Part shown: one piece after another, positions 4,750 to 62,980 of the stretch
How the letters are laid out: each line of letters begins with the position of its first letter
How positions within the stretch are numbered: the stretch's first letter is position 1
Assembly: GCA_015501585.1 (NCBI GenBank)
Contig: JADNRY010000074.1
Coordinates: forward strand, 186,001 to 250,000
Reading direction: 5' to 3'
Source of the DNA: Rhodocollybia butyracea
Lineage: Eukaryota; Basidiomycota; Agaricomycetes; Agaricales; Omphalotaceae
Length of the DNA stretch: 64,000 bases
Translations under genes and position numbers: made by a program
The notes under the pieces: generated by a model
Database searches by the model: none
What the model was told of the DNA's origin: nothing
Seen by the model: the letters and a program-made list of their open reading frames with translations, nothing else

Positions 4750-4790
4750 TTTTAAATCAATTCTATTGATTCATCTATCTCTCATCTACT

Positions 4791-6233: not shown

Positions 6234-6297
6234 GCAGCGCGCTAGGAAGTTGGTTAGTTCGAGATTTGAAACCTTGGCTCTCGCCCGACCAGCAGGA

Positions 6298-8237: not shown

Positions 8238-9201
8238 CGCCAGACAACCCATCCGGGAACCCTGGCCTCTCGAGCGTCTCATTCATGAACGCTCAATCGC
8301 GCTCGGCATGGCAATTGACCTGACCAGCCGAGCCTCGTATTCATCTGCGCTAAATTCCTATTTAAATTTCTGCTCTATTCACGATTTTCCTATAGAACCA
8401 ACAGCAGACACGCTCAGTTTTTTCGTCATCTATATGAGCCGCCACATCGAGCCCAGATCTGTCGACTCCTACCTCTCTGGCATTTGTTCAGAAACTGAAC
8501 ACCTTTTCCCGAATATTCGCGCTATTCGAAATGGCCCCATCGTCAGCCGTACTCTCAAAGGCTGCAAACGACTTTACAGCAAACCAGTCAAACGGAAACT
8601 TCCACTATCCCGGCACCACCTTCATCACACACTAGCTTCCCTTCCCCCAAACCCTCGACATGACGACATTCTCTTTTCCACCATGCTGTTCGTTGGTTTC
8701 CATGGGCTATTACGACTCGCAGAATTGACCATGAATAACAACCCCAGACTCCGAAACCCTCGGAAATACAGCCAACGCAACTCGGTAGAATGGTTGGAAA
8801 CCTCATTCAGTTACTGGTTACCAACGCACAAAGCGGATCCGACGTTTGAAGGAAATCGGATTCTTGTCAACAACCCAGAAACTGTTAAACTCTTCCGTCT
8901 CTACCTAGACAGCCGGGACACGCTCCAACCTTTCCACCCTTTCCTCTGGGTTCGAGAGAACGGGGAAATCCCCTCCCGGAACTGGTTCCTTCGCCAACTT
9001 CGACGTTTTGTCCCTGACACTCGGATCGCTGGACAGTCAATGCGAGCAGGAGGTGCTACAGCACTAGCAGAAGACGGAGCAGCCCCATCCATCATACAAG
9101 CATCAGGACGTTGGGCATCCGAGGCTTTCCGTGTATATATCCGCAAAAACCCGATCCTACTCCAAGCTCTCCTCACCGCTGGTCGAGGTCAACACATTTG
9201 A
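8218..9201 (+). CDS. Ngaro tyrosine recombinase
   Basis: 327 aa, open, from ATG 8218, which overlaps the end of the RNase H frame. This is a lambda-integrase-like tyrosine recombinase, inserting the circular DNA intermediate. The N-terminal SAM-like core-binding part has ASYSSALNSYLNFC and VDSYLSGICS. The catalytic domain has box I Arg in FHGLLRLAEL, box II GQSMRAGGATAL, then SGRWASEAFRVYIRKNP with the candidate nucleophile Tyr. Box II normally reads HxxR; here the His position is Gln (CAG), which could be a lineage feature or an inactivating C-to-G change. The domain ends immediately before B1. Confidence 0.88.
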   Translation: MIQISRNARQPIREPWPLERLIHERSIALGMAIDLTSRASYSSALNSYLNFCSIHDFPIEPTADTLSFFVIYMSRHIEPRSVDSYLSGICSETEHLFPNIRAIRNGPIVSRTLKGCKRLYSKPVKRKLPLSRHHLHHTLASLPPNPRHDDILFSTMLFVGFHGLLRLAELTMNNNPRLRNPRKYSQRNSVEWLETSFSYWLPTHKADPTFEGNRILVNNPETVKLFRLYLDSRDTLQPFHPFLWVRENGEIPSRNWFLRQLRRFVPDTRIAGQSMRAGGATALAEDGAAPSIIQASGRWASEAFRVYIRKNPILLQALLTAGRGQHI

Positions 9202-9270
9202 TTCGACGCGAGACACGCATCCCCATCTAGACGATTTCATCGTCCCTCATATCTCTTTCACACATAGTCC

Positions 9271-9378
9271 TTAGCGGTCTCTTCGCGCCTCGCTCAATCA
9301 ATCTCAGGGCCGCCTCCTCGAGGCGGCTGCTTTTCTCGCTAAATCACGCAGTGATTCACAACGAACATAGACAATTAG
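9271..9378 (+). repeat. Ngaro split direct repeat B1
   Basis: 108 bp, identical to B2 (9913-10020) as read. It carries the palindrome GCCGCCTCCTCGAGGCGGC and sits directly against A2. Confidence 0.9.
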
Positions 9379-9846
9379 TCGTGTTTAAACATAGTGGTTT
9401 ACATTAGTCTAATAGTCAAGTGAGTAACACACCTTACTATTCTCTTCTGAATACTTACGTGTTTCTTCACCCCTCGGGTCGCAAGAAGAAACACAGACTC
9501 CTCTCGTTGCAAACAAGAGATGTCTCAGAATCGAACTCCCTCTATCAGAGGATGTTCTTCTGGTAAGTTCTTTCCCCAATTTTGTCTCAACAATTGGGTT
9601 GACACGAACTCTTGTTCTCTCCAGGTCTTTGTCCAGGACAATTAGGCAAGCTTAGACCTGTCCTTTGGACCTCTCGCTTGGACCCTCGGATCGTATTTAT
9701 ATGCTGGCGGAGCAACGAAACAACTCTATCAGTTTCTCTATCGTCGCTCTGCCAGGTATACTCTCAGTTTATTCACTAGACTCTCTTACTTACAGTTTCT
9801 CTATCGTCGCTCTGCCAGTACTTAACATCGCTCCTCATTTGTGTCT
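9379..9846 (+). repeat. Ngaro split direct repeat A2
   Basis: 468 bp copy of A1, joined directly to B1. It is followed by 66 bp of unique CT-rich sequence (9847-9912) before B2. Confidence 0.9.
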
Positions 9847-18382: not shown

Positions 18383-19774
18383 TGATACGCCAAAACCCTT
18401 TTGGCCCTAGAATACTGTTTTTTGGCATTTCTGCAGTGTACATAGTATCTGGAAGTCATTGGGAGTGCTACCCATGATCTCTAGTTACTGAAACCCACCC
18501 TCAAACCCTGTAGTCTCATATGTATCTGTCTTGTCTCTACAATTCACATATCCAGAAGGATTGATCAGTATGCAGTGCTCCATCTGATAAAGCATGCAAG
18601 AGACTATGGTCTGGACTTGTGTATCAATGTGTTTCGCTTGAATCCAATGTAATACAAGCTCCTCCAACCTCTATATGCTCAGAATTGTGATATATGCACT
18701 TCTCACTATATGTTAATTCATCCCCTGCTTGACAACTCTGAAAGAAAAGGAGTTTGTTATGTATATTTGGTTCCCTGAGGTCTATTCAATGGAAATACAC
18801 TAGAAGCACTCCCAGTAATATTTGTAGCATTTGTGCAGCACCACTTCACGAGTTATGAAGGCTGTATCCATTACTACTTATAATATTGGGATTAGAAGAG
18901 AACCTCTTTAGAAAGGTGTCACGCATGCGAAATATGATTGCGGCGGCATTTGGAGAACTCAATAGATATACTAGAGAGTCCAAATCCGAAGTCCCGAGTC
19001 GTGCCAATGTCCGGAAGTGGTTGAAATACGGAGATCTTGCTATAACTCCGAAATTAGGTCACTATTTGTTTAAGCCGAACATGAGCTAAAACCGCCGTTC
19101 CCCTGCATCCTCTGTGGTACTTTCGAGATAGGACAGTGTCCCTAGACCTCTAGCATCGCTATAACCGAGTACAAGCATTTATAGAAGCTTGTTGTCCCTT
19201 CCCAAGTACAGGGAAGAGTGATAATCTCCAATTTCGGAGTGTTGATTTGAAATTTGAATTGAAATATAATAGAAACATGAAACTCGCTCGTTAGAAGCTA
19301 GAGAGCGGTTTGACACACCCTTAAGTGGTCTGTGCACACTACACAGCCGCGCTCCTGCTCTATATAATGTAGCCCAGATTGATAGTTGATCCCCAGGTTT
19401 AGATTCCCCCCTCACATTAGAGGCAGGGATTTCCTCCTCACTTCACACAGTTGTAATATTAGTTTTGTTTGTTTTGCTTCAAGTTTAGTAAAGTTCAGTC
19501 CAGTAAAGTATTGTAGTTAGGCTGCAGTCAGAGCTCTGTCTGGGTAGAACAACCTCTGGTCAGTGCTTTCTTGTATTATATAGCCTTCCGCCTCTCCCCC
19601 CCTTTTTACCATAGTTCTTGCATTCACCTTTCATTTCAAAGTTCAACTCTTTGTAATTTCACATCCCCCCTCTGAACTTAGAGTCTTTATTGTAGTTTAG
19701 TGGTAGGTGTTGATGGTTGGCTGTTTATGGGCCATTTCTCATACTTTCCGCTTAGCCACAGTAACGCCCTCTCA
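18383..19774. repeat. 5' LTR of the LARD-like element
   Basis: 1392 bp. A TATATAATG box lies at about 19361-19369 and the downstream part is T- and CT-rich, as in an R/U5 region. The 67-codon stretch near 18886 is conserved between LTRs only because the LTRs are identical; it has no ATG start. Confidence 0.9.
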
Positions 19775-23167: not shown

Positions 23168-24563
23168 TGATACGCCCAAAACCCTTTTGGCCCTAGAATA
23201 CTGTTTTTTGGCATTTCTGCAGTGTACATAGTATCTGGAAGTCATTGGGAGTGCTACCCATGATCTCTAGTTACTGAAACCCACCCTCAAACCCTGTAGT
23301 CTCATATGTATCTGTCTTGTCTCTACAATTCACATATCCAGAAGGATTGATCAGTATGCAGTGCTCCATCTGATAAAGCATGCAAGAGACTATGGTCTGG
23401 ACCTTGTGTATCAATGTGTTTCGCTTGAATCCAATGTAATACAAGCTCCTCCAACCTCTATATGCTCAGAATTGTGATATATGCACTTCTCACTATATGT
23501 TAATTCATCCCCTGCTTGACAACTCTGAAAGAAAAGGAGTTTGTTATGTATATTTGGTTCCCTGAGGTCTATTCAATGGAAATACACTAGAAGCACTCCC
23601 AGTAATATTTGTAGCATTTGTGCAGCACCACTTCACGAGTTATGAAGGCTGTATCCATTACTACTTATAATATTGGGATTAGAAGAGAACCTCTTTAGAA
23701 AGGTGTCACGCATGCGAAATATGATTGCGGCGGCATTTGGAGAACTCAATAGATATACTAGAGAGTCCAAATCCGAAGTCCCGAGTCGTGCCAATGTCCG
23801 GAAGTGGTTGAAATACGGAGATCTTGCTATAACTCCGAAATTAGGTCACTATTTGTTTAAGCCGAACATGAGCTAAAACCGCCGTTCCCCTGCATCCTCT
23901 GTGGTACTTTCGAGATAGGACAGTGTCCCTAGACCCTCTAGCATCGCTATAACCGAGTACAAGCATTTATAGAAGCTTGTTGTCCCTTCCCAAGTACAGG
24001 GAAGAGTGATAATCTCCAATTTCGGAGTGTTGATTTGAAATTTGAATTGAAATATAATAGAAACATGAAACTCGGCTCGTTAGAAGCTAGAGAGCGGTTT
24101 GACACACCCTTAAGTGGTCTGTGCACACTACACAGCCGCGCTCCTGCTCTATATAATGTAGCCCAGATTGATAGTTGATCCCCAGGTTTAGATTCCCCCC
24201 TCACATTAGAGGCAGGGATTTCCTCCTCACTTCACACAGTTGTAATATTAGTTTTGTTTGTTTTGCTTCAAGTTTAGTAAAGTTCAGTCCAGTAAAGTAT
24301 TGTAGTTAGGCTGCAGTCAGAGCTCTGTCTGGGTAGACAACCTCTGGTCAGTGCTTTCTTGTATTATATAGCCTTCCGCCTCTCCCCCCCCTTTTTACCA
24401 TAGTTCTTGCATTCACCTTTCATTTCAAAGTTCAACTCTTTGTAATTTCACATCCCCCCTCTGAACTTAGAGTCTTTATTGTAGTTTAGTGGTAGGTGTT
24501 GATGGTTGGCTGTTTATGGGCCATTTCTCATACTTTCCGCTTAGCCACAGTAACGCCCTCTCA
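23168..24563. repeat. 3' LTR of the LARD-like element
   Basis: 1396 bp. It differs from the 5' LTR by homopolymer lengths at about 23176, 23402, 23936, 24074, 24337 and 24389. It ends directly against the truncated kinase-like paralogue at 24564. Confidence 0.9.
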
Positions 24564-28623: not shown

Positions 28624-31600
28624 ATGCGCTTCCCATCTTTCACTCTATCACTCTTCGCACTCTTGACTGTTCTGCCCACCATATATGCAGCCCCTTGCCA
28701 GTATGGAGATTGTTCGCTGCAACGCCGTGCCGCCACTTCCCTCATCGGGACCACCCTCACCATCGAAGGCAAAGGGGCAGTCATTGGTCCTCAAATTACA
28801 GACAAGGAGAATAAGTGGCGCCCCGTATATCACCTAGGTCAACTCGATTCCGCGTTTTCTTCATTGACACTGGATGCAGATTCACGTGATTTGCCGTGAT
28901 ATATGCTGAACAAATGTGCAAATCTCACCAAGTGGGAATCACATAATTTTTGATGCTTTTGGTAAAATCATTGTAAAATCATGTTAAAGCTGAGATATAT
29001 AGATTTGTCATTAGATATTTACAAGGGGCAGAAGTTATTCTGGAGGTATGATGGAAACATGGTGCTTAAAGTCAATATAAAATGCTTGTATGTCATCTCT
29101 TCCTAGTACAATATACCAAAAAGATACAGGAAAGTTATGCAAACATCTTCAATAATTTCACCCAACTTATGGGAAGTTGCTTTCTGGTTTTTTACCTATA
29201 AGGTGCCAGAGTTGTGAGAAATGTATGTTGAGAATATGATGATATATAATATTTATATGTCATCCATTCCTTGTACTATATACAAGAAACATACAGAAAA
29301 GTTGTGCAAAACATCTACTATAAAAGTTGCTTTCTGGGTTTTACCAATAATGAGCCAGAATTGTGAAGGATGTATGCTGAGCATATGAAGATATATAATG
29401 CTTATATATCACACATTCTTTGCGCTATATATGAAAAACATACAGAAAAGTTTTGCAAAACATCTCCTATAATTCCACTTAACTTACTGGAAGTTGCTTT
29501 CTGGGTTTTTACCTATAACAAGCCAGAATTGCAAAGGATGTATGCTGAACAAATGAGCACAATTAATACTCAAATGATTCAAATCCATCTTCATAATTAA
29601 TCACAAGAGCTGGTGATTACAATTTTGAAAATATGCTAAAGAAAAATGTTAAAGTTATGTCAACACAGGCTCATGTAAGCTGTTTTATGAACAATGAAAC
29701 TATAATGAACATATGAATGGTTAATATCACTGTTAATCCATTGTAAATGTGGCAAGTTTTGGTATAAATGTGGGGGAGCTATGATGTATGTGATTAGCAT
29801 AACTTCACTGTAATCATTACCACATACAGGGAATACATCTGTAAACTATTATACCTATTATATCATACACATTTACTATCTGTTCACAATGAGGGTACTG
29901 CATTATTAAAAAAACATGGGGTTTAAACACAATAAATAATGAGGAAACTATGATAAATTTGACATCTGCACTGATCTATATATTCATCATTACTTTAGCA
30001 GATTTGGATGAACTGACAGAAAATGTACAAAGGACAAGTGTGGATGTTATTGATTTTTGAGTTGCAAGTTGGGGTCTAATGATGTGGCAACATGGGGGAT
30101 ATATGAGTTGTCAATTATATGATAGAATTATGTTAAAAAGTACATGAATGTGACAATGATTTATGCAAACAATTGTGGGCAATGATATAGAAAGAGTGTG
30201 CGAAGTATGCAAAAGGTGTAGCAAAGTGATACCAAATAAATTTTTGTAAAATTTATACAAAACAAAGAAATAATGTTGAAGAAATGTTAAGTTGTGCACA
30301 TTGCTGGAGTATAATCTGGTATCTAGTGTTAGCCTGGATATTGCATATCTGGTGGCCATCTGTAGCCATGGTGGAGCATATCTCGCACATGTGTATAGCC
30401 ACAGCAGTGTATAGTGCTTTGGTGGAACATATCCAGTACATGTATGTTGTGTAGGAATTTGGATTGGAATATTTGCAAGTGCCTCCGTGTACAAACCTGG
30501 ACTGACTCATATGGACTGGAGTCATAGTGTGTCAATATTGCATTGACTCATTTGTAGTACATAGTTACTGTGCATTGAGTCATTGACTGTGCAATGATTC
30601 TAAATGACTCATAATGACTTTACATGACTTGCCTGGACTTAAAGCAAGTCAATTCCCTTATGTAGTGTAGTATACAATTGTATAGTATATAAGTACCTAG
30701 TTTTATGGAATGAGACTCCATCGGGTTGTTGACCCAGGGCTTTACCCATCTCTACCCTCTGGTGTGCTTTTGTCCCCACATTTGGAGGATGAGCGTAGCT
30801 TGTATCTGAATTTTCCCCCTTTACAACAACATGTTGCCTTGGTGTAATTTGACTGGTACATATTTGGTGCCTATCTGTAGCCTTGGTGGAGTGTATCCAG
30901 TACATATCTGGTGCCTTGGTGTAACATGACTGATACCTATTTGTTGCTGCAGTGCTGTATACCTGGTGTGTATCTGGAGCCGTGGTGGGGCATATCTGGA
31001 GCCATGGTGGGGCATATCTGGTGCCTTGGTGTAACATAACTGGTACCTATGAGTACCCTCAGGCTGGTGGCTATCTGGTGCCTTGGTAGAACATATCCAG
31101 TACATGCATGTTGCCTTGATACTACCTAGAAGTAGCCGAGTGGATCATATACAGTACCTGCATATCTTGCACCATCTGAACTGGTACCTATTGACAGCCT
31201 CCATGTTTTGTGCTTGGTGCCTATCTAGAGCCTTGCAGGACAATATTGGGTACAGATGAGTAACAGGTATGTATCAACTTATGGATCAATTTCCAAATTG
31301 ATAGTAAATTCTACCCTATTGTTTGAGTTCCTTGTCGATGGCAATGTTTGTATCTCTTTCAGCCAACAGGTATAAAACATGAAACATGCTTAGAATCATT
31401 TTTTTGAATTAAGTTGAGTATATGAGGGTACAAGTGAAGAATGCATATAAAGTGGCCACCTCTGTGTGCTGCAGGTTTGCCAGTTGTTGATCGGTTCTCA
31501 CCTGATTTGGACCAATCAAATGGATGACCGAAGCTGGTATGTGACATGGCAACACGGCAACTTCCCAGCACTCACACTGTTGTTGGAAAATAGCTCAGAG

Positions 31601-34600
31601 AAGTTGCAATTGTTTAATAGTAAACATTTTAGGATGCTGTTTGTTCTATTGGCTGAGATCTGCACCAAAACTCCAGCAAAATTATTCTTTGTTTGACAGC
31701 AAAGTGCCCTTCTTGCATCAGGAGCGCCCAATTGATCAATTGATCAGATCTGATGTGGAACTTGGATCTGCCATATTTTGTTGTGACATCGGGCCTGTCC
31801 AGCCAATAGCATGGAACCTGGGAAAACCTGCATAAACCTGGGCAAGCCTAGGCTTGCCTAGGATACCGAGGGAATCCTCAAGAGCCTTGACAGGCAAGGG
31901 ACAAGCCCAAAATCCTAGGATGCCATAGGATTCATAAGGGTTCTACCTGGATGCCTGGTCGAGGATAGCTGGTACATATCTGGGATGTTGCTGTTTCATA
32001 CCTGGTCTGTACCTGTCCTGACTTCTGTCCGTAAATCACACTTTGGTTCTACCTGGATGACTGGTGGGGCATACCTGGTACACAACTGGGCTCTTGCTGC
32101 TTCATACCTGTTCTGTACCTGTGGCCTCTGTGGATCAAACCTGGGTTGTATCTGGATGCTTGGTGGAGCATAGCTGGTACATATCTGGGATCTTGCTGTT
32201 CTGTACCTGTCCTCTCCTTAAATCACACCTGGGTCCTACCTGGAGGCATGGGGCATCCGACCTGGTATGCAACTGGGGCCTTGCTGCTTCATACCTGTTC
32301 CGTACCTGTGGCCTCTGTGCATCATCCCTGGGTTCTATCCAGATACATGGTGGAGCATAGCTGGTACATATCTGGGATTTTCCTGCTCCCTATCTGTTCC
32401 ATACCTGTCCTGTCCATAGACCACACTCGGCTTCTACCTGGATCCCTGGTGGGGCATACCTGGTACACAACTGGGGTCTTGCTGCTTTGTTCCGTACCTG
32501 TGGCCTCTGTGGATCATACCTGGTTTCTATCTGGATGCATGGAGGAGCATGCCTGGTATGCCACTGGGCTTCATACCTGTTCTGTTCCTGTCCTGTCTGT
32601 AGATCACACCTGTGTTGTACCTGGATGCCTGGTGGGGCATCCCTGGTACACAACTGGGGTCTTGCTGCTTCATACCTGTTCCATACCTGTGGCCTCTGTG
32701 CATCAAACTGGGGTTCTATCTGGATACATGGTGGAGCATAGCTGGTACATATCTGGGATCTTGCTGTTTCATACCTGGTCCATACCTGTCCTGACTCCTG
32801 TCCGTAAATCACACTTGGGTTCTACCTGGATGGCTGGTGGGGCATACCTGGTACACAACCAGGGTCTTGCTGCTTCATACCTGTTCCGTACCCGTGACCT
32901 CTGTGCATCAAACCTGGGTTCTATCTGGATGCATGGAGGAGCATACCTGGTACATAACTGGGAACTTGCTGCTCCATTACGGCCATAATAGTGTGTAATA
33001 AATCAGATATTGAAGCCATCAAATGCAAGAATGTTGGTACCTGGTACAGTGGTACACAACTGTGGTCTTGCTGCCTCATACCTGTTCCATACCTGTGGCC
33101 TCTGTGGATCATACCTGGGATCTCTCTGGATGCATGGTGGAGCATCATCAGGAAAATGCCCCCTACACTCAAGTAACCTTAAGCCAACCTGGCTGACCCC
33201 CCAGCCAACCTGAGGGCGGTGCATCCAGATAGAAACCGGGTATGATCCACACCACAGATGCTACAGGTACAGAACAGGGATGAAGCAGCAAGGCTCCCAT
33301 TGCATACAAGTTATGCCCCACCAAGCATCCAGATAAAAGCCTCGTGTGATCTAAAGACAGGACAGTTACAGAACAGATATGAAGCCGCAAGATCCCTGAT
33401 ATGTACCAGCTATGATCCTCCATGCATCCAGATAGAAACCAGGTATGATCCACCTGAGAGGCCACAGGTACAGAACAGGTATGAAGCAGGAAGACCCCAG
33501 TTGCATACCAGGTATGCCCCACCAGGGATCCAGGTAGAACCCAAGTGTGGCCTACAGACAGGACAGGAATGGAACACATAGGAAGCAGGAAGATCCCAGA
33601 TATGTACAAGTTATGCTCCACCATGCATCCAGATAGAACTCAGGTATGATGCACAGAGGCCACAGGTATGGAACAGGTATGAAGCAGGTGTGATCTATGG
33701 ACAGGACAGGTACAGAACAGGTATGAAGCAACAAGACCCCAGTTGTGTACCAGGTATGCCCCACCAGCCATCCAGGTAGAACCCACATGTGATTTACGGA
33801 CAAGAGTCAGGATAGGTACCACCAGGTATGAAGCAGCAACACCCCCAATATGTACCAACTATGCTCCACCATGCATCCTGGTAGAAACCAGGTAAGGCCA
33901 CAGGTACAGATACCTGCCTGCTTCCGTGAAGAACCTGACATTGCCCCAGATCCTCCAGAAGCTGCACCAGGCAATAGACCAGATGTTGCAGAAGGTGTCG
34001 CCATGGCCTTCATGGCCACTGTCCATGCTCAGGGAGCCTCAGAGCCCCGCACTCTTCAGGAAGCACTCCGGGGTCCTAACTTGGCCTCTTGGCTGAAGGC
34101 TGTAGACACAGAGCTCAAGTCTCTCATTGATATGGGAACTTTTGAGTGTTCTGTACCTCTAGCCTCTGTGAATCATACGTGGTTCCTACATGGTGGAGCA
34201 TAGCTGGTTAAAGATGTCCACGAGTCCGGGTTATCCACAGGTACTCGCAGGTATGACCGTGAGAATACTTGCAGGTATGTCTATCTGCGGATCCCGGTAT
34301 CCGTTTCCCACGGATCCGTGCGGGTCACGGGTATTGATTCAAGGAAATTTGAGCTACCTGCAGGTACCTGCAAGTCTTTGTGGGGAGGGCAAGGATAAAT
34401 TTTTTCCGCTCAAATAAGGGCTGGAATATGCTCTCCTCTATGCATTGTCTGAGTAGCTCATGTGTCCACCTAGCATGTCGCAAGTTACAAGTGGCTATAT
34501 GCACTGTAGTACTATACAATTATGATGAATGTAGTCCCTCTTTAACTCCTGTGACTTGTATCAGTCAAGGACATAAGCTAGCTTGTTTCAGTCCGTATAA

Positions 34601-37600
34601 TGCACAATGTAACCGCCATACTTTTGTTGTGCCTTCTTTAATGAAGTCTTTAGGTTGTTCCATGTAGATCTCTTCATCTAGCTTGCCATAAAGAAAAGCC
34701 TGTTTGACGTCAAGAGTCTGGATTTCCCAGTCCTCTAATGCGGCTAAAGCTAGGAGAGTTCGTACAGTTTCAAACCGGGCGACTGGTGAGAACAACTCAT
34801 TATAATCCACACCTTCTACTTGTGAAAAACCTTTTGCTACGAGTCGGGCTTTATAGCAACCATCAGATTTTTTAGTAAAAACCCATCGACAACAGATAGG
34901 TTTGCAACCTTTTGGTAGATCAACTACTTCAAAGACATTTTGTTTCTTCAAACCATTGATCTCATCTTTGCATGCTTGATCCCATTTCTTTCTTTCAGCA
35001 GATGGTAAATGACAATATGATGTTGGAGAAATCCAATTATCAGGATTATTCCTAGCGGCTTCGTGTTTAGCCAGTATCATTTCACTGTCAAGATCTGTGA
35101 TAAAAGATGATTCTTCTAGATAATCGGAGATTGCTTGCGAAAGAAGGTATTTTTGTAATTCAACTCCCCCTTCCTGAGCTAGTTTAGTCAGAAGTGCTTC
35201 CTCTTCTATGTCAGAATCCGGAGTAGCGCCGGGAGGTGGCGGTGTGACCATACAGTCATCAGGATTCAATGGACGTGGTGGTGGAACCGGTGGCGGAACT
35301 TGATCAGGAACTATATTGCGAGCAGGCACAAGTCCACGTCTAGCGTGTCCAAAGTGCTCAGCAAGTTCTTCACGATCAGCTTGTCGGCTCCAAGTGCCAG
35401 GCGTGGGTATCATGCCAGGGCGCAAGGGTGCACGACGTTCTCTAGTGGGGTTCACACGTTTCCATGCTTCAACGTCTTTGGGACGGTAGCTGAATGGATT
35501 AGGATTGGGAGCAGGTGGTGAAGGGTCTCTTGCTTGAGGTGGAGGGGTGGGTGATCGAGATGGTACCGGAGGATCGGGATTTGGAGCATCATCATCACCA
35601 GGCAGATCTGGATCTGGGCCAGCTGATGGACTGTGCGGTCCATTATCCGGTTCAGTAAACGGTTGTGGTTGATCTTCCGGGAATTCCGGATCAAATGGAA
35701 TGTCTGCACCATTACCATTTGAAGGTTGCGAAGGTTTCACAGGCGTGGGGGCAACAGGTATAGCGGGTTTTACTCCAGAATCAGATTTGGATTTGCACCG
35801 TGGAAACCATTTCTCATAGAAAGTTGCTTGTGCAGCATGCACTACGGAATTATCGCTACGCATGAATAGATATCCTTTGCTTCCTTGGTCATATCCAATG
35901 AAAGTCATCGCTTCAGAGTGTGGAGATTGTTTATTTTTTTTTTACATGGTGGACTTCAAGTTCCCAAGACATCATAACTTGGAGTTTGAAACTCTGCGAT
36001 GTTGAATGGTCTTACGCTCCTGGATTGATGCTGGTCTTGTTCCTATTGATGAGGTTCTTGCATATCTGTGTAATTTGAAAAGCCGTTGCAAGGGGAAAGG
36101 AAAGAGTGTTGCTGATGCTGATAAGTCAGATTCCGAGATTGAGCTATTGTAGTTTGGCTAATAATTTGTATCAATTACAGTTTGTTTGTTGTTGTACTAT
36201 ATAATTACTTTTCCTATTTTAATTCTTCCAGATACTTGCACATATACTTGCAGGTACCTGTGCTGACTTGAGTCACAGGTACCTGTGGGTCTACTTGTGT
36301 AAATTACTTGCAGGTCCAAGTCAAGGTTCTCACGGGTCTTTGCCAAGTCACAGGTCAACTTTTTTGAGCTTCAGGTACCTGTCTGACGAGTCCGAGTTGA
36401 CTTGGATTTGGACTCATGTGCATCTTTACCTACCTTGGACATTGCTGCTTTATACCTGTTCCGTACCTGTGGCCGCTGTGGATCATACCTGGTTTCTATC
36501 TGGATGCTTGGTGGAGCATAGCTGGTACATATCTGGGACCTTGCTGCTTCATACCTGTTCTGTACCTGTCCTGTCCTTAGATCACACCTGGGTTCTACAT
36601 GGATGGCTGGTGGGGCATCCCTGCTACACAACTGGGGCCTTGCTGCTTCAAACCTGTGGCCTTTGTGGATCATACTTGGTTTCTATTGGGATGCCTGGTG
36701 GAGCATAGCAAGTACATATCTGGGATCTTGCTGCTTCTTACCTGTTCCATACCTGTCCTGTCCAAAGATCACACCCAGGTTCTACCTGGATGCCTGGTGG
36801 GGCATACCTGGTACACAACTGGGGTCTTGCTGCTTCATACCTGTCCCATACCTGTGGCCTCTGTGCATCAAGCAGAGCTTGTCAAAGGAGTAGAGGAGTG
36901 AGAAGAAGACTTGGATGAAGTGGCCTGAAGCATGTCTGAGGCTAAAGATGGACAAAAGTCCAGTTCCCAACAGGTGACCCGCAGATTTGACTGGTGGGAA
37001 GACCCATTTGACCTGGAAAGCAGCCGCAGATCAAGTGGGACATGAATCCGGATCCTGGTCCACCCGGACCTGCCACGCAGGTACCTGTGCCAAAAAAAAA
37101 CGCGACCCGCTACCTGATGCCGAGCCGTGGGAACAAGTACCAGGATCCGGGGGTGTTTGCACAGGTCAACCCACAGGTACCTGTGACCTGGTATCCTTTC
37201 ACAACCTTAGCTTGGATTATAATGTATTTTGATTATTTACAGACTCAAGCTGATGATGGGTGTGTTTAACAATATTACTGAAGAGCTATGCTCCACTAGG
37301 CATCCAGGTGGAACCTGGGTGTGATCTACAGACAGGACAGGTATGGAACAGGTATGAAGCAGCAAGATCCCAGATATGGACCAGCTATGCCCCACCAACC
37401 ATCCAGGTAGAACCCAGGTTTGATGCACAGGGGCCACAGGTATGGTGCAGGTGTGAAGCAGCAAGACCGCAGTGGTGTACCAGGTATGCGCCACCAGGCA
37501 TCCAGGTAGAACCAAAGTGTGATTTACAGACAGGAGTCAGGACAGGTATGGACCAGGTATGAAACAGTAACATCCCAGATATGTACCAGCTATGCTCCAC

Positions 37601-40600
37601 CAAGCATCCAGATAGAAACCAGGTATGATTCACAGAGGCCACAGGTACAGAACAGGTATGAAGCAGCAACATCCCAGGTATGTACCAGCTATGTTCCATT
37701 AGGCATCCAGGTAGAACCTGGGTGTGATCTACAGACAGGACAGGTACGGAACAGGTATGAAACAGCAAGGTCCCAGATGTGTACCAGCTATGCTCCATCC
37801 TGCAACCAGATAGAAACCAGGTTTGATCCACAGAGGCCACAGGTATGGAAAAGGTATGAAGCAGCAAAACCCCAGTTGTGTACCAGAACCCAAGTGTGAT
37901 TTACAGACAGGACAGGTATGGACCAGGTATGAAACAGCAAGGTCCCAGATATGTACCACCTATGCTCCACCAGGCATCCAGATAGAAACCAGGTATGATC
38001 CACAGAGGCCACAGGTATGGAACAGGTATGAAGCCGCAACATCCCAGGTAAGTACCAGCTATGCTCCACTAGGCATCCAGGTAGAACCTGGGTGTGATCT
38101 ACAGACAGGACAGGTATGGAACAGGTATGAAGTCAGAAGCAGCAAGATCCCAGATATGTACCAGCTATGCCCCACCAACCATCCAGGTAGAACCCAGGTT
38201 TGATGCACAGGGGCCACAGGTATGGAGCAGGTGTGAAGCAGCAAGACCCCAGTTGTGTACCAGGTATGCCCCACCAGTCATCCAGGTAGAACCCAGGTGT
38301 GATCTACAGACAGGAGTTGGGCCAGGTATGGACCAGGTATGAAACAGCAAGGTCCCAGATATGTACCACCTATGCTCCACCAAGCATCCATATAGAAACC
38401 AGGTATGATCCACAAAGGTCACAGGTACAGAACTGCTATGAACCAGCAAGACCTCAGTTGCATACCAGGTATGTCCCACCAGGCATCCAGGTAGAACACG
38501 GGTGTGATCTATGGACAGGATAGGTATGGAACAGGTATTTTGAAGCAGGGAGATCCCAGTATGGCCGTAAAAGTGTGTAATAAATCAGGCAGTGAAGTGC
38601 ATCAAATGCAACAATGTTAAGACAGTCATTTGCAATTATCTTCTGGCATATCACCATGTTATCCTAGGTCATTCCATTTGTTGCAATGTTCTCAAGTCCT
38701 GATGCACTCCAGTTCAACACAGCTGAATCGGCTACACAATGTGTCATAATAGAAAAAAATAAACCTCTCAGGCCAAGTTAGTGACCTGGTCATTGGAACT
38801 GTACTAGCATTACAAAGTAGTCTCCTATACATTTGCATACATAATTTCAACTTCAGTGAAGGACTCAAAGCTTGAGTCTCAGGAGTGGCAAGTTTCATGC
38901 TCACAGTCAGCTGTGATTGGGTGTGGGTGGGGCCGGGTGGGCCCAATATGGCTACTGCAGAGCCTTTCCCTGTGCTTGGATTGCATGTTTTGGCACCAGC
39001 TGGCACTTGGTGCTGAAGAACTAATATTTATTCATGCTGCCACAAACCTAAAGTGACGGTAGCATACATAAGCAATACTAATGCAGCTATAACCTCAGAA
39101 GGGGAGGTTGCTTTTGGGTGTGAGCATCTGGTGAGTATGTCCTTTGAAGCTGTGGCGCAATTCTGCCAAGTAAGTCAAAGGTTGTTTTGTTCATTTATTC
39201 ATTGACGCAGCAAGGCTCCCATTGCATATCAGTTATGCCCCACCAAGCATCCAGATAGAAGCCTTGTGTTATCTACAGACAGGACAGGTACAGAACAGGT
39301 ATGAAGCCCCAAGATAAATTTAAAAAATCCCAAATATGTACCAGCTATGAATGGAGGTAAGTTTGACCAGAGGGGAAAATACCTTGTCAAAGTCTGAGCT
39401 AGGCATCTGGGAGAAACCTCGAGCAACTAAGCATGCCTTGTACCGCTCAATGGTCCCGTCAGGGAGGCGCTTAATCTTAAAGACAAGCTTGGAGCTAATA
39501 GCACAGTGACCTTTAGGCAAATTGGCAATAAACTCAAAAGTTCCCATATCAATGAGAGACTTGAGCTCTGTGTCTACAGCCTTCAGCCAAGAGGCCAAGT
39601 TAGGACCCCGGAGTGCTTCCTGAAGAGTGCGGGGCTCTGAGGCTCCCTGAGCATGGACAGTGGCCATGAAGGCCATGGTGACACCTTCTGCAACATCTGG
39701 TCTATTGCCTGGTGCAGCTTCTGGAGGATCTGGGGCAATGTCAGGTTCTTCACGGAAGCAGGCAGGTATCTGTACCTGTGGCCTTACCTGGTTTCTACCA
39801 GGATGCATGGTGGAGCATAGTTGGTACATATTGGGGGTGTTGCTGCTTCATACCTGGTGGTACCTATCCTGACTCTTGTCCGTAAATCACATGTGGGTTC
39901 TACCTGGATGGCTGGTGGGGCATACCTGGTACACAACTGGGGTCTTGTTGCTTCATACCTGTTCTGTACCTGTCCTGTCCATAGATCACACCTGCTTCAT
40001 ACCTGTTCCATACCTGTGGCCTCTGTGCATCATACCTGAGTTCTATCTGGATGCATGGTGGAGCATAACTTGTACATATCTGGGATCTTCCTGCTTCCTA
40101 TGTGTTCCATTCCTGTCCTGTCTGTAGGCCACACTTGGGTTCTACCTGGATCCCTGGTGGGGCATACCTGGTATGCAACTGGGGTCTTCCTGCTTCATAC
40201 CTGTTCTGTACCTGTGGCCTCTCAGGTGGATCATACCTGGTTTCTATCTGGATGCATGGAGGATCATAGCTGGTACATATCAGGGATCTTGCGGCTTCAT
40301 ATCTGTTCTGTAACTGTCCTGTCTTTAGATCACACGAGGCTTTTATCTGGATGCTTGGTGGGGCATAACTTGTATGCAATGGGAGCCTTGCTGCTTCATC
40401 CCTGTTCTGTACCTGTAGCATCTGTGGTGTGGATCATACCCGGTTTCTATCTGGATGCACCGCCCTCAGGTTGGCTGGGGGGTCAGCCAGGTTGGCTTAA
40501 GGTTACTTGAGTGTAGGGGGCATTTTCCTGATGATGCTCCACCATGCATCCAGAGAGATCCCAGGTATGATCCACAGAGGCCACAGGTATGGAACAGGTA

Positions 40601-43600
40601 TGAGGCAGCAAGACCACAGTTGTGTACCACTGTACCAGGTACCAACATTCTTGCATTTGATGGCTTCAATATCTGATTTATTACACACTATTATGGCCGT
40701 AATGGAGCAGCAAGTTCCCAGTTATGTACCAGGTATGCTCCTCCATGCATCCAGATAGAACCCAGGTTTGATGCACAGAGGTCACGGGTACGGAACAGGT
40801 ATGAAGCAGCAAGACCCTGGTTGTGTACCAGGTATGCCCCACCAGCCATCCAGGTAGAACCCAAGTGTGATTTACGGACAGGAGTCAGGACAGGTATGGA
40901 CCAGGTATGAAACAGCAAGATCCCAGATATGTACCAGCTATGCTCCACCATGTATCCAGATAGAACCCCAGTTTGATGCACAGAGGCCACAGGTATGGAA
41001 CAGGTATGAAGCAGCAAGACCCCAGTTGTGTACCAGGGATGCCCCACCAGGCATCCAGGTACAACACAGTGTGATCTACAGACAGGACAGGAACAGAACA
41101 GGTATGAAGCCAGTGCATACCAGCATGCTCCTCCATGCATCCAGATAGAAACCAGGTATGATCCACAGAGGCCACAGGTACGGAACAAAGCAGCAAGACC
41201 CCAGTTGTGTACCAGGTATGCCCCACCAGGGATCCAGGTAGAAGCCGAGTGTGGTCTATGGACAGGACAGGTATGGAACAGATAGGGAGCAGGAAAATCC
41301 CAGATATGTACCAGCTATGCTCCACCATGTATCTGGATAGAACCCAGGGATGATGCACAGAGGCCACAGGTACGGAACAGGTATGAAGCAGCAAGGCCCC
41401 AGTTGCATACCAGGTCGGATGCCCCATGCCTCCAGGTAGGACCCAGGTGTGATTTAAGGAGAGGACAGGTACAGAACAGCAAGATCCCAGATATGTACCA
41501 GCTATGCTCCACCAAGCATCCAGATACAACCCAGGTTTGATCCACAGAGGCCACAGGTACAGAACAGGTATGAAGCAGCAAGAGCCCAGTTGTGTACCAG
41601 GTATGCCCCACCAGTCATCCAGGTAGAACCAAAGTGTGATTTACGGACAGAAGTCAGGACAGGTACAGACCAGGTATGAAACAGCAACATCCCAGATATG
41701 TACCAGCTATCCTCGACCAGGCATCCAGGTAGAACCCTTATGAATCCTATGGCATCCTAGGATTTTGGGCTTGTCCCTTGCCTGTCAAGGCTCTTGAGGA
41801 TTCCCTCGGTATCCTAGGCAAGCCTAGGCTTGCCCAGGTTTATGCAGGTTTTCCCAGGTTCCATGCTATTGGCTGGACAGGCCCGATGTCACAACAAAAT
41901 ATGGCAGATCCAAGTTCCACATCAGATCTGATCAATTGATCAATTGGGCGCTCCTGATGCAAGAAGGGCACTTTGCTGTCAAACAAAGAATAATTTTGCT
42001 GGAGTTTTGGTGCAGATCTCAGCCAATAGAACAAACAGCATCCTAAAATGTTTACTATTAAACAATTGCAACTTCTCTGAGCTATTTTCCAACAACAGTG
42101 TGAGTGCTGGGAAGTCGCCTGTGTTGCCATGTCACATACCAGCTTCGGTCATCCATTTGATTGGTCCAAATCAGGTGAGAACCGATCAACAACTGGCAAA
42201 CCTGCAGCACACAGAGGTGGCCACTTTATATGCATTCTTCACTTGTACCCTCATATACTCAACTTAATTCAAAAAAATGATTCTAAGCATGTTTCATGTT
42301 TTATACCTGTTGGCTGAAAGAGATACAAACATTGCCATCGACAAGGAACTCAAACAATAGGGTAGAATTTACTATCAATTTGGAAATTGATCCATAAGTT
42401 GATATGCACTAGTCGCAGTTGGGCGCTCTGCACTCAGGTAGGTGCCATAAAATCCCAAACTGATGACTATGACTTTATTTATGTTTTGGTTGCCTGATCA
42501 CATCAACCCGGGAAATGGCAGAGCTGGACCAATCTGCAACCCACCAGTCATGTTACACCAAGTGCCAGATATGTACCAAATACACAGTTACACAGATATG
42601 CACCCAGTATAAAACACTGAGGGTACAAATTAATAGGAGTAACAGGTATGTATCACTGAGGCTACTTATAAGTACCAGTCATGTTTCAGTACTGTATAAT
42701 TATGACCAGATGCCGCATAATGCATAATGGGACCCCCAAGCATGGGGCATTTTGCAATCCGTAATGCATAACAGGAGGGTCCAAGCATGGTATTTCTCAA
42801 AATGTCACAAATTTTTGCGGCAGGCCTTTGGCCCACCTATTTATTTGTAAGGATGGACACAACTCCTGGTTAGATTCCAGTACCTGTGGGAAACACCCAT
42901 GGGAATACCTGGAAACCTGTAACCCACGGGTGCCAACAATCATGTACGCACCTATCAAGGGAGTACAAGACGTACATAATTGTGGCCTCAGTTACATACA
43001 TGGTGCCTATCTGTATCCTTAGTGACATATATTCAGTACATATCTGGTGCTTTGGTGTAACGGAACAGGTACCTATTTGTACCCTCCATATACTGGGTGC
43101 ATATCTTGGGTCTTGATGGAGTGTATCTGGTACATATCTGGCGCTTGGTGTAACATGGCTGATATCTATCTGTAGCCTTGGTAAACCATTTCTGATACAT
43201 ATCTGGTGCCTTGGTGAAACATGACCGGTACTTATGAGTAGCCCTCAGTGATACATACCTGTTACTCATCTGTACCCAATATTGTCCTGCAAGGCTCTAG
43301 ATAGGCACCAAGCACAAAACATGGAGGCTGTCAATAGGTACCAGTTCAGATGGTGCAAGATATGCAGGTACTGTATATGATCCACTCGGCTACTTCTAGG
43401 TAGTATCAAGGCAACATGCATGTACTGGATATGTTCTACCAAGGCACCAGATAGCCACCAGCCTGAGGGTACTCATAGGTACCAGTTATGTTACACCAAG
43501 GCACCAGATATGCCCCACCATGGCTCCAGATATGCCCCACCACGGCTCCAGATACACACCAGGTATACAGCACTGCAGCAACAAATAGGTATCAGTCATG

Positions 43601-46046
43601 TTACACCAAGGCACCAGATATGTACTGGATACACTCCACCAAGGCTACAGATAGGCACCAAATATGTACCAGTCAAATTACACCAAGGCAACATACATGT
43701 ACTGGATATGTTCCACCAAAGCACTATACACTGCTGTGGCTATACACATGTGCGAGATATGCTCCACCATGGCTACAGATGGCCACCAGATATGCAATAT
43801 CCAGGCTAACACTAGATACCAGATTATACTCCAGCAATGTGCACAACTTAACATTTCTTCAACATTATTTCTTTGTTTTGTATAAATTTTACAAAAATTT
43901 ATTTGGTATCACTTTGCTACACCTTTTGCATACTTCGCACACTCTTTCTATATCATTGCCCACAATTGTTTGCATAAATCATTGTCACATTCATGTACTT
44001 TTTAACATAATTCTATCATATAATTGACAACTCATATATCCCCCATGTTGCCACATCATTAGACCCCAACTTGCAACTCAAAAATCAATAACATCCACAC
44101 TTGTCCTTTGTACATTTTCTGTCAGTTCATCCAAATCTGCTAAAGTAATGATGAATATATAGATCAGTGCAGATGTCAAATTTATCATAGTTTCCTCATT
44201 ATTTATTGTGTTTAAACCCCATGTTTTTTTAATAATGCAGTACCCTCATTGTGAACAGATAGTAAATGTGTATGATATAATAGGTATAATAGTTTACAGA
44301 TGTATTCCCTGTATGTGGTAATGATTACAGTGAAGTTATGCTAATCACATACATCATAGCTCCCCCACATTTATACCAAAACTTGCCACATTTACAATGG
44401 ATTAACAGTGATATTAACCATTCATATGTTCATTATAGTTTCATTGTTCATAAAACAGCTTACATGAGCCTGTGTTGACATAACTTTAACATTTTTCTTT
44501 AGCATATTTTCAAAATTGTAATCACCAGCTCTTGTGATTAATTATGAAGATGGATTTGAATCATTTGAGTATTAATTGTGCTCATTTGTTCAGCATACAT
44601 CCTTTGCAATTCTGGCTTGTTATAGGTAAAAACCCAGAAAGCAACTTCCAGTAAGTTAAGTGGAATTATAGGAGATGTTTTGCAAAACTTTTCTGTATGT
44701 TTTTCATATATAGCGCAAAGAATGTGTGATATATAAGCATTATATATCTTTATATGCTCAGCATACATCCTTCACAATTCTGGCTCATTATTGGTAAAAC
44801 CCAGAAAGCAACTTTTATAGTAGATGTTTTGCACAACTTTTCTGTATGTTTCTTGTATATAGTACAAGGAATGGATGACATATAAATATTATATATCATC
44901 ATATTCTCAACATACATTTCTCACAACTCTGGCACCTTATAGGTAAAAAACCAGAAAGCAACTTCCCATAAGTTGGGTGAAATTATTGAAGATGTTTTGC
45001 ATAACTTTCCTGTATCTTTTTGGTATATTGTACTAGGAAGAGATGACATACAAGCATTTTATATTGACTTTAAGCACCATGTTTCCATCATACCTCCAGA
45101 ATAACTTCTGCCCCTTGTAAATATCTAATGACAAATCTATATATCTCAGCTTTAACATGATTTTACAATGATTTTACCAAAAGCATCAAAAATTATGTGA
45201 TTCCCACTTGGTGAGATTTGCACATTTGTTCAGCATATATCACGGCAAATCACGTGAACCTGCATCCAGTGTGAGACTTTACTAACAGTTTACTTCAATC
45301 ACTTTTAGCTTCATGGGACAATGAGAAGAAGGAAGCGGATAAGCCTGGTTACATCTTAAAACTATTCCTATGGGCGCCTGAAGATTCAAAATTGCGAAGA
45401 GAGATAGAGGCTCTCAGGCTTGTGGGTCAACTTGTTAAAGCAGGTCAAGTTGTTGTAGAAAATCAGAAGAAAAATGCAATTGTGATGCATGAGGCACCAG
45501 GGAAGACAATGAAACAATTACGGGAGGACCACCCAAAAGAGATTGTGAAGATAATGAAACGATGGATACCCGCAATTGCGGCCAAGGCTGCTCATTTTGC
45601 TAAGCAAGGGCTAAGTCATCAGTGAGCAACTCAATTCCCCTGCGCTTTTGTTGGATTTTGTTAATTTTGTCGTTCTAGTGATCTGAACGAAGGCAATGTG
45701 AGTAACTCATAGAGCTTGCTCACTTGAAGCTAACTGTGGCCAAGATTTTCATAAGTATGAACAAGAATACAGCAGAAGACTTCCTTCCCTCGACTGGAGT
45801 CACCCCGGCTGACATGATGAGCCGAGTCACCCTGATTGACTGGGGGTACTATGACAGACCTGGCGAAAAAGTACGTCTACATTATAACTTTTAACTCTTC
45901 AAGTTTAATGCTTTTCCGCCCTACAGGGCTTCACGGATGATTCTAAAGAATTTGAGAGAAGAATGGGAGCAGATTGGGGCCTGATGGAATGGAGCCAGAG
46001 GAATGGACCCACGGAAGCCTGGCTGGGGATATCAAAGAAACTTTGA
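28624..46046 (+). CDS. Predicted secreted protein-kinase-like protein, first intron holds a 16.4 kb element
   Basis: Exons 28624-28837, 45309-45621, 45679-45697, 45745-45870 and 45927-46046 join in frame to 263 aa. Residues 1-22 (MRFPSFTLSLFALLTVLPTI..) are a signal peptide with an A-type cleavage site before APCQYGD. The rest has the elements of a minimal kinase fold: GYILKLF (candidate beta-3 Lys89), RREIEAL (alpha-C Glu), NAIVMHEAPGKT (hinge region), HHDLNEGN (H-x-D..N catalytic loop, 175-182) and LIDWG (214-216, in the DFG place). It is short (usual kinase domain about 250-280 aa plus signal), so lobes are trimmed. Donor 28838 (GTCAAC) is weak but is the only nearby one that keeps frame; removing the inserted element leaves a normal 64 nt intron with ACTAAC. 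A truncated paralogue lies at 24564. Substrate unknown; activity is inference. The huge palindromic intron may block expression. Confidence 0.72.
29083..29565 (+). repeat. Three AT-rich tandem units of about 150-165 bp
   Basis: Units share TTATATGTCA..CATACAGAAAAGTT..GCAAAACATC..GTTGCTTTCTGGGTTTT..GCCAGA.TTG..GGATGTATGCTGA. The repeated TATGCTGAACAAATG also occurs at the outermost end (28902), so the end of the element itself looks like a unit fragment: a subterminal repeat pattern as in CACTA elements. Mirrored at about 44570-45060. Confidence 0.7.
30450..30831. repeat. Solo LTR (382 bp) in the left arm only
   Basis: Starts TGTAGGAATTTGG, ends TTTACAACAACA, with TGTTG duplicated at 30445-30449 and 30832-30836. 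The right arm shows the uninterrupted sequence (reverse complement near 43690). Contains a TATAGTATATAAG promoter-like box near 30680. Probably Ty1/copia type, from length and layout. Inserted after the two arms existed. Confidence 0.85.
31940..33190 (+). repeat. Dimeric ~198 bp satellite array, forward
   Basis: Two alternating ~99 bp monomers: A (GGAGCATAGCTGGTACATAT.. ending CCTGTCTGTAGATCACACC) and B (GGGGCATACCTGGTACACAA.. ending GGCCTCTGTGCATCA). ACCTG recurs every 10-25 bp. The period is a multiple of three and indels are mostly 3-6 bp, so open frames of up to 280 codons arise. I regard these as by-products of the repeat. Confidence 0.82.
33230..33890 (-). repeat. Same satellite, reverse orientation (left arm)
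   Basis: Head-to-head with the preceding array. The turning point (33178-33232) carries the short inverted repeat AGCCAACCTGGCTG / CAGCCAACCTGAG. Makes a palindrome inside the larger arm. Confidence 0.78.
33896..34149 (+). pseudogene. Ty1/copia polyprotein fragment (before RT), left arm
   Basis: Encodes PDIAPDPPEAAPGNRPDVAE, then RTLQEALRGPNLASWLKAVD and ELKSLIDMGTFE, matching the start of copia reverse transcriptase (W..A...E...L...GTFE). Cut off at 34149 where the arm identity ends and satellite resumes. Confidence 0.7.
34565..35908 (-). pseudogene. Ty1/copia polyprotein fragment: integrase-RT linker and RT start
   Basis: 447 codons open. It begins with FIGYDQGSKGYLFMR and VVHAAQATFYEKWFPR, the conserved end of copia integrase regions. 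A long Pro/Asp-rich linker follows, then RT motifs: WDQACKDEINGLKKQNVFEV, CRWVFTKKSDGCYKARLVAK, GFSQVEGVDYNELFSPVARF and TLDVKQAFLYGKLDEEIYM, stopping just after LYGLKQAS. The YVDD box, RNase H, protease and gag are absent. It has no LTRs around it. It differs clearly from the copia fragment in the arms, so at least two copia families contributed. Confidence 0.82.
36012..36152 (+). pseudogene. Possible C-terminal end of an hAT transposase
   Basis: LRSWIDAGLVPIDEVLAYLC followed by a basic/acidic tail and TAG resembles the last residues of basidiomycete hAT transposases (after the dimerisation domain). Only about 47 codons, directly beyond the copia fragment. Weak assignment. Confidence 0.25.
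36430..36880 (+). repeat. Dimeric satellite array, forward (core)
   Basis: About 2.3 dimers of the same A/B units as in the arms (GGAGCATAGCTGGTACATAT; GGGGCATACCTGGTACACAA). Confidence 0.78.
37270..38560 (-). repeat. Dimeric satellite array, reverse (core)
   Basis: About 6.5 dimers, head-to-head with 36430-36880 across a 390 bp spacer. Ends near 38560 at ATGGCCGTAA..GTGTGTAATAAATCAG, a sequence also bordering the array in both arms (32978 and 40690). Confidence 0.78.
39347..39775 (-). pseudogene. Ty1/copia polyprotein fragment, right arm (longer copy)
   Basis: Same fragment as 33896-34149 but extending further into RT: FIANLPKGHCAISSKLVFKI, then KRLPDGTIERYKACLVARGF and SQMPSSDFDKVFSPLVKLTS. 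It then runs into satellite. The extra 180 bp lies inside the core beyond the arm-identity border at 39533. Confidence 0.75.
39785..41740. repeat. Satellite arrays of the right arm (forward 39785-40450, reverse 40530-41740)
   Basis: Mirror images of 33890-33230 and 33190-31940. The same turning-point hairpin with GGTTGGCTGGGGGGTCAGCC is at about 40465-40500. Confidence 0.8.
42406..43253. other. 850 bp present only in the right arm
   Basis: The left arm reads GTATGTATCA/ACTTATGG at about 31265-31280, whereas the right arm has about 850 bp between the same flanks. ATCA occurs at both borders, as left by a microhomology-mediated deletion in the left arm. Content: more GTACATATCTGG-type repeats and a low-complexity GCATAATGGGACCCCCAAGC / CATAACAGGAGGGTCCAAGC pair. 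Confidence 0.65.
44570..45060 (-). repeat. Mirror copy of the AT-rich tandem units
   Basis: Reverse complement of 29083-29565; three units. See the left-arm entry. Confidence 0.7.
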
Positions 46047-61918: not shown

Positions 61919-62980
61919 CTAGTGCTTTCCGTTCACCAGTGAAACCTCCTTTATCTCCATCTCCTTGACATCCCTGCTCACCACAACATCTTCGCCAAAC
62001 ACATGCAACTTCGACGCGGTATTAACCGAGGAGTGCACCTGCGCATGTGCACTGACACCCTGCACCATCACCTCCATGCTCTGCGATATGTGCTCATACG
62101 CTGACTTGGTCACTACCTCGATTGCTCCTGCGATAGCCAGAGCCATGATAGAGCTCATCTGTGCGGTGACATGCTCCACCGTCGAATGGGCGATCTTGTT
62201 CATAGTGGCCTGCATGACGGGGTGTGTGGCGATGACGGAAAAGTCGGGCTCAGCAACAACTTTGAACTTCATCCAGGGAACTTCGCTGAGCATGGTCGAG
62301 AGGGATTCGTTGTACTCGATGACGACGATGACACCGTTGTCGGAGCGGAGTCTAGCGGCGAGGTCGAACCAGCACTCTTTGATTGTTCGGCCGTCGGTGA
62401 GTTTGCATTTAGCGAAGAGTTTTGTTCCTTCGATTCGGAAGCCCTCGGATGTACGGTGGAAGTCTTTGAAGCCCCACTTCAACTCGCCGTTGATGTTACC
62501 GAGGTACTTGTGGAGGTCGAAGGTGGAGACTTTCCAGTGTTCGCCATCCGCTAGAAGACACTCGGCTGAGAGAATACCTTCAGCTGAGACATGGTGTTTC
62601 CTGGTGCTCTGTGCGAAGGACATTGTCATTGTCCTGTATGAAATATGTCAATATTAAATAATAATTAAAACACAGGCAGATTGACTGACCTCACGCTCTT
62701 AAAGCTTGACTTCGTTTCAGAGTGGTACTCTGAAAAGTATTGGGTCTTCTCGGAAACAGCGGTGGAAACAGCAGTGGAACTGCTGCTTGCGCTCATACTA
62801 GCTGTCTTAACGGCCATGGTAGAAGCGATGTCAATTTTCAAATCTTCGGCACTACATGGGTTGGAAGTAAGTTCGTATATGCAACTAGATTTGAAACTAT
62901 AGCACTCACGCTTTCACTGCGTCAAGTACAGCGGGCTTGGCTTGGGACTGGGGAGTTTTCACAGAGTTGGTAGAAGACAT
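61919..62980 (-). CDS. CVNH (cyanovirin-N homology) domain protein
   Basis: Exons 62980-62910, 62851-62695 and 62608-61919 join in frame to 305 aa; the last acceptor (CGCACAG, 62609) is the one that keeps frame. Residues about 1-76 are a Ser/Ala-rich leader without signal peptide. A CVNH domain follows (about 78-190): HVSAEGILSAECLLADGEHW, FDLHKYLGNINGELKWGFKD, LFAKCKLTDGRT and WFDLAARLRSDNGVIVVI, the two tandem repeats of this mannose-binding lectin fold. The C-terminal ~110 residues are helical (STVEHVTAQMSSIMALAIAG, EVVTKSAYEHISQSMEVMVQ) and not part of CVNH. Fungal CVNH proteins are usually about 100 aa, so this is an extended form. If exons 1-2 are untranslated, an ATG at 62629 gives 236 aa. 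Confidence 0.8.

Follow-up and report, generated by a model that had tools for sequence, protein, structure and literature searches.

The window analysed here, a 64,000-nucleotide stretch of the Rhodocollybia butyracea genome (contig C1094:186001-250000), contains an intron swollen by a 16.4-kb inverted-repeat element, which raises the question of what such an element is, how it moves, and how its two long arms come to be so alike. A first-pass annotation of the same DNA read it as a giant foldback-like element or as a head-to-head composite of two elements. We searched the 95.6 Mb of the genome (1,381 contigs) for its relatives. The termini, TGA duplications and coordinates that the annotation had given proved exact when the window was re-read (Table 1).

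Table 1. Features of the window element and of the intron that it occupies (positions in the window)
Feature	Position	Strand	Remarks
Whole element	28868..45271	.	16,404 bp; C1094:214868-231271 on the contig; based on ends, inverted arms and the empty allele on C983
Left TGA target duplication	28865..28867	.	
Right TGA target duplication	45272..45274	.	Empty allele has a single TGA
5' end CACTGGATGCAG	28868..28879	+	
3' end CTGCATCCAGTG	45260..45271	-	
5' arm	28868..34147	+	5,280 bp; includes 30450-30830, without match in the 3' arm
3' arm	39532..45271	-	5,740 bp; includes 42405-43248, without match in the 5' arm
Core	34148..39531	.	5,384 bp; ~99-bp tandem repeats abundant
Copia-type fragment in core	34565..35941	-	Pfam RVT_2, E 3.2e-44; SH3-like domain, E 8.3e-8
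Second copia fragment (RVT_2), spanning the junction between core and 3' arm	39320..39847	-	Pfam E 4.5e-12
Satellite block, 5' arm	31938..33145	.	Mirror copy at 40534-41737
Host intron enlarged by the insertion	28838..45308	+	16,471 bp, against 64 bp in the empty allele

Alignment of the window to itself recovered the two collinear inverted arms (5.3 kb and 5.7 kb) around a 5.4-kb core that had been described, and resolved the arms into three collinear inverted blocks (28868-30449/43689-45271 at 99.81% identity, 30831-31276/43249-43694 at 100%, and 31272-34147/39532-42404 at 99.76%). The three blocks sum to 4,906 aligned columns, of which 4 are substitutions and 6 are gaps. By subtraction, 381 bp are found in the 5' arm only and 844 bp in the 3' arm only. 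The description of satellite-rich arms with copia pieces likewise stands, with tandem-repeat periods of ~22, 99 and 149 bp across arms and core, in addition to the RVT_2 fragments. The 8-mer CTGGATGC from the element end occurs 32 times in the window copy and is sparse in other subfamilies. We make nothing of the terminal 8-mers within the satellite, since their enrichment is mainly a matter of subfamily A and arises via the tandem repeats.

The window holds other repeats and genes. Direct repeats of 1.4 kb at 18383-19774 and 23168-24563, 99.6% identical, resemble the LTRs of a putative retrotransposon lying between them. A second pair of direct repeats (469 bp, 99.8% identical) bounds the interval 4281-9846 and encloses ORFs that by eye resemble a reverse transcriptase and a tyrosine recombinase, an arrangement that we take to be DIRS-like; one ORF from this interval, run against Pfam, gave no match. 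An ORF with a DDE_3 transposase domain (Pfam E 2.4e-21) lies at 1665-2132 (+), and a protein with a cyanovirin-N domain, 96% identical over its full length to a Rhodocollybia butyracea protein, is encoded at 61922-62629 (-).

The right flank of the window element finds a 99% match on contig C983 of the same genome, where the flanks are joined at one TGA (1,533 aligned columns, 99.1% identity). The alignment extends over 520 bp on the left side, and further left the structures of the two contigs diverge. On C983 the site falls within a 64-bp intron with GT..AG borders, whose in-frame splice yields a predicted 176-aa protein (no Pfam match at E 0.1), so that the intronic position proposed by the first-pass annotation is borne out by an uninterrupted allele. 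Since this empty site has a single TGA, the window element is a true insertion, and it is missing from one allele. We infer that C983 is the other genome copy of the locus, and the insertion probably lowers or abolishes the function of the window allele. The locus thus offers a clean pair of insertion and empty site in one gene, in a genome with two allelic copies. A segment at 24572-24947 matches the 3' half of the interrupted gene at 77% on the same strand; with other matches on C983, C909, C440 and C882, the gene may belong to a tandem family.

Second copies with the same ends and other 3-bp duplications were looked for genome-wide and do exist. The genome gave 102 matches to the 12-mer end and 6 to its reversed-pattern control; for the 24-mer end, with at most 3 mismatches allowed, the corresponding counts were 74 and 0. 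Neighbouring ends less than 40 kb apart form 20 pairs, among which 15 face inward (lengths 7.2 to 36.7 kb), 2 and 2 point in the same direction and 1 faces outward. The termini are CACTG..CAGTG throughout the 15 inward pairs. The loci were found by their first 12 end bases, which are therefore invariant by construction; of the next 168 columns, 109 are invariant in nine loci (34/48, 41/60 and 34/60), as would suit an end that is bound. Flanks were inspected for all 15 pairs, and nine have exact 3-bp target duplications: TGA in the window copy (C1094), TGG in C136, TAT in C14, TAC in C788, TAG in C992, ATA in C552, ACA in C677, TTC in C1127 and ATA in C1067. In C910, C938 (CCA/TCA) and C579 two of the three bases agree, and the remaining three pairs have mirror-image flanks (C1227, 1.5 kb read; C587, 300 bp read, at a contig start; C1316, ~19 bp). 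Two further loci, L012 (C335:168673) and L023 (C156:15725), have one flank in common at 99.1% with gaps as the sole differences; they carry the same insertion and are perhaps its two alleles. One end of the C788 copy (L018, just past 30055) lies 13 bp from a Plavaka transposase match at C788:30068-30592, so this copy probably sits inside a Plavaka element.

Giant palindromes, or the identity of their arms, could in principle be produced by chimeric reads or by polishing during assembly. The mirror-image flanks of C1227 (at least 1.5 kb) and C587 speak for such an origin and may themselves be assembly artefacts, and the assembly seems often to break off inside such elements: among the 28 unpaired minus-strand ends, 22 are no more than 18.5 kb away from where a contig starts. 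In C1227:15615-33414 (L015, L016) the flanks mirror each other for at least 1.5 kb at 99.9%, and positions 1-600 of this contig have no match at their mirror place, so that the mirror image stops short of the contig start; it is either an artefact or a real larger palindrome. As an account of the family, an artefact is highly improbable. At the window locus the empty C983 allele argues against an assembly palindrome, as do the two unlike flanks and the target duplication; in the window copy, in C938 and in C1127 the two arms are told apart by one-sided pieces or by numerous substitutions, and so were assembled separately; and nine pairs combine unlike flanks with exact duplications.

The ends and duplications place the family near known cut-and-paste transposons. 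Fungal EnSpm/CACTA elements are reported to have CAC..GTG ends and 3-bp duplications, Plavaka elements of the same clade have TGT..ACA or CATCA..TGATG ends and 2-3 bp duplications, and Kyakuja and Zisupton have 7-8 bp duplications (PMC12730594). All 15 pairs have the CAC..GTG pattern in their CACTG..CAGTG ends, and the 3-bp duplications, exact in 9 pairs (3 others agree at two bases, 3 have mirror flanks), are those of EnSpm/CACTA, in agreement with the likeness of ends and duplications noted at first pass. The Plavaka termini differ from those found here, for all the likeness in clade and duplication length. KDZ elements (Kyakuja, Dileera, Zisupton) are disfavoured by duplications of 3 bp and by the position of their transposase matches, since 0 of 144 matches to PF18758 lie inside the pairs. 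PIF/Harbinger elements duplicate a 3-bp TWA target, and neither TTA nor TAA is present among the nine exact duplications. EnSpm/CACTA elements have short terminal repeats plus subterminal repeats, whereas the arms here measure kilobases and no copy among the 15 pairs holds a recognised transposase. In structure the family belongs to the foldback type, with inverted arms of 2.5-12.6 kb, tandem repeats inside them and no transposase.

The absence of a transposase holds as far as ORFs, Pfam and genome transposase matches reach. Plavaka and KDZ transposase matches are abundant in this genome, as is usual in agaricomycetes: we counted at least 138 for Plavaka (123 of 237 candidates scored), 144 for KDZ and 22 for Transposase_21, and by position, checked by eye for every match and by script for part of them, none lies inside any copy in the 15 pair spans. 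ORFs were listed from 80 aa upward in the window element, from 120 aa in the C14 core, from 130 aa in the cores of C136, C788, C677, C910 and C992, and from 140 aa in the whole copies C938, C587 and C1127. Pfam searches with 15 of these ORFs (C14, 7; C938, 3; window element, 2; C136, 2; C1127, 1) returned no transposase, the matches being copia or gag domains and weak ones below the cut-off (DUF6532 in C14). Given EnSpm-like ends and 3-bp duplications with no transposase match inside the pairs, the copies are likely to have been moved in trans by an EnSpm-like transposase, possibly from an autonomous partner with the same ends elsewhere in the genome.

The most interesting point of the family, missed at first pass, is the likeness of the arms within each copy. 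Ten copies were read whole, and their inverted arms align over 2.5 to 12.6 kb; within blocks of more than 98.5% identity, which leaves aside weaker and one-sided parts, the arms differ by 0, 0, 1, 1, 1, 4, 4, 5, 7 and 46 substitutions (at most 0.37%). Eleven copies were compared over their outer 1.1 kb: in 10 of 11 a copy's own arms differ at 0-3 positions, and the nearest other copy among the same eleven differs at 6-207. In a tree of these arms, a copy's own two arms are closest or identical in 9 of 11 cases, C992 being not resolved and C1127 split. The arms within each copy are thus more alike than the same arm is across the other complete copies. Had the arms drifted freely from the common ancestor of the copies onward, they should differ within a copy to the same degree as between copies, which those of the complete copies do not.

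C1127 is the exception in the outer 1.1 kb, with 462 differences as aligned, owing to a 1.3-kb insert in one arm; with the insert taken out, the alignment of its arms has 6,150 columns, of which 1 is a substitution and 14 are gaps. The insert (L054; element bases 228-1529 of the 5' arm, one arm only) has the inverted ends TGTTATGAC..GTCATAACA, and we read it as a nested transposon that arrived after the arms had last been copied. As counter-evidence, some unpaired loci differ from another locus at only 1 to 6 of ~1,575 positions (L017/L021, 1/1,575; L011/C1094, 4/1,575; L032/C992, 4/1,576), so that young copies also resemble each other. The arms of C552 match over 1,844 bp only of the 2,990 read per side. 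Consensus polishing could have inflated the likeness of some arms.

A mirrored insertion in C938 turns arm copying into a dated event. This copy, at C938:37596-64871, has arms of 12.6 kb with a whole-arm difference of 0.37%, and both arms carry the same copia retrotransposon at the mirrored position, each with the 5-bp duplication TAGCG, at a site that is uninterrupted in C910. Within each arm the copia LTRs differ at 11 of 386 positions, whereas the same LTR compared between arms shows 2 differences in 387 and 0 in 386. With LTRs that have diverged within the arm and are near-identical between arms, the copia inserted a single time, aged, and only then was copied to the opposite arm along with its surroundings. 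The tract copied is ~5 kb or more, which is compatible with conversion in place or with a palindrome rebuilt when the copy later transposed. C938 is the main case for copying, and its own target duplication is inexact.

The palindrome also has a history that precedes the individual copies. The window copy and C788 have their arms and much of the core in common, in the same order and orientation, which points to one long palindromic ancestor from which the palindrome was inherited. C14, C992 and C136 differ from this ancestor by internal deletions and insertions, and C136 also by partly inverted core pieces. Palindromes are found as well in copies whose outer sequence has 75% (C677) or 71% (C587 and C938) identity to that of the window copy, and hence in subfamilies that are 25-29% apart there. 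Palindrome depth was ruled out as proof of stepwise arm growth, as many of the differences are internal deletions and insertions. The core of C14 includes a 5.3-kb stretch foreign to C788 that holds a gene with 59 genome matches. Set against the part of the Plavaka and KDZ matches that was compared by script, 24 of them are no more than 8 kb from a Plavaka match, 3 are near KDZ only and 32 near neither. With C14 itself left out, 17 of the best 24 matches are near Plavaka, and the idea that the gene lies mostly near Plavaka was not borne out over the full set (24/59). We take it for a companion gene of transposons that C14 happens to carry, and not for a gene belonging to the family itself.

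These shared structures bear on two other origins for the arms. A head-to-head fusion of two CACTA-like elements, since moved as one unit, would yield inverse arms with outward-facing ends, and an ancient event of this kind could have founded the family. It is nevertheless highly unlikely, given that the window copy has no inner ends and that cores are common between copies: CACTGGAT occurs 0 times in the element once 60 bp are trimmed from each end, and C788 shares the arms and much of the core. The earlier interpretation thus stands in its giant, intronic, foldback-like element without transposase, and finds no support for a two-element composite formed at this site; its further suggestions, that the element may extrude a hairpin and that double-stranded transcripts could feed RNA silencing, stand as hypotheses. 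Alternatively, the palindrome might be rebuilt at each transposition through a hairpin or template-switch intermediate, the arms being alike as young and not as converted in place. The almost difference-free arms of most of the ten copies agree with this, and rebuilding would account for the mirrored copia of C938 no less well than conversion would. We still hold it to be rather unlikely, because the window copy and C788 have a common core and arm order and because one-sided pieces persist in the window copy and C1127, so that at least some copies are something other than newly made, perfect palindromes; moreover, we know of no rebuilding step for EnSpm-type elements.

We consider it probable that the window element belongs to a family of non-autonomous DNA transposons whose ends resemble those of EnSpm/CACTA, whose mobility depends on a transposase acting in trans and whose giant arms stay alike because one is copied onto the other. 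The transposase, presumably EnSpm/CACTA-like, would bind the conserved ends and move the element by cut and paste. To judge from the pattern of differences, one arm would repeatedly be copied onto the other, via gene conversion or template-switch repair within the element, and deletions, insertions and repeat slippage would thereafter give rise to copies of very different size.

Long near-identical arms are also a property of mammalian Y-chromosome palindromes, which maintain them through arm-to-arm conversion; those are fixed chromosomal structures, whereas the palindromes described here are mobile. The nearest parallels among transposons are Galileo and Tetris. Galileo, of the P superfamily in Drosophila, is described as having long, internally repetitive terminal repeats, many copies consisting of terminal repeats only, and strong length variation; its longest-armed copies are without transposase, with arms to ~1.26 kb that are 95.2% alike in the longest-armed copy, and its chimeric copies are bounded by unlike 7-bp sequences (PMC3573991). 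The corresponding account of Tetris, a foldback element of Drosophila virilis, gives a noncoding element with tandem repeats in the arms and a variable middle, the arms reaching 1,735 bp with 220-bp repeats (PMC4079207). Lack of coding capacity, arm repeats and a variable middle are thus features that Tetris has in common with this family, and its host and ends differ. Against the portrayal of Galileo, arms here reach 12.6 kb, are 99.5-100% alike and are accompanied by 3-bp duplications; compared with both, their length is up to seven to ten times greater and their likeness higher. Fungal EnSpm/CACTA elements share the ends and 3-bp duplications, and differ from the present copies, which have kilobase arms and no internal transposase. 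In the open-access literature, which is limited evidence, we found no fungal transposon with kilobase-long homogenised arms. We rate the family as foldback-like with EnSpm-like ends, its arms longer and more alike than those of Galileo and Tetris.

A bolder proposal, to which we give a low probability, is that this is a eukaryotic DNA transposon with arm-to-arm copying built into its life cycle, a hairpin or template-switch intermediate renewing the multi-kilobase palindrome. If so, one arm would proofread the other, and an insert in one arm would spread to both. Kilobase palindromes are expected to be unstable, and this transposon family nonetheless keeps them, with arms that reach 12.6 kb, in subfamilies whose outer sequences differ by 25-29%. 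It makes testable how giant palindromes are maintained and moved in a eukaryote, whether they encounter fungal RNA silencing, and what assemblies lose at such sites.
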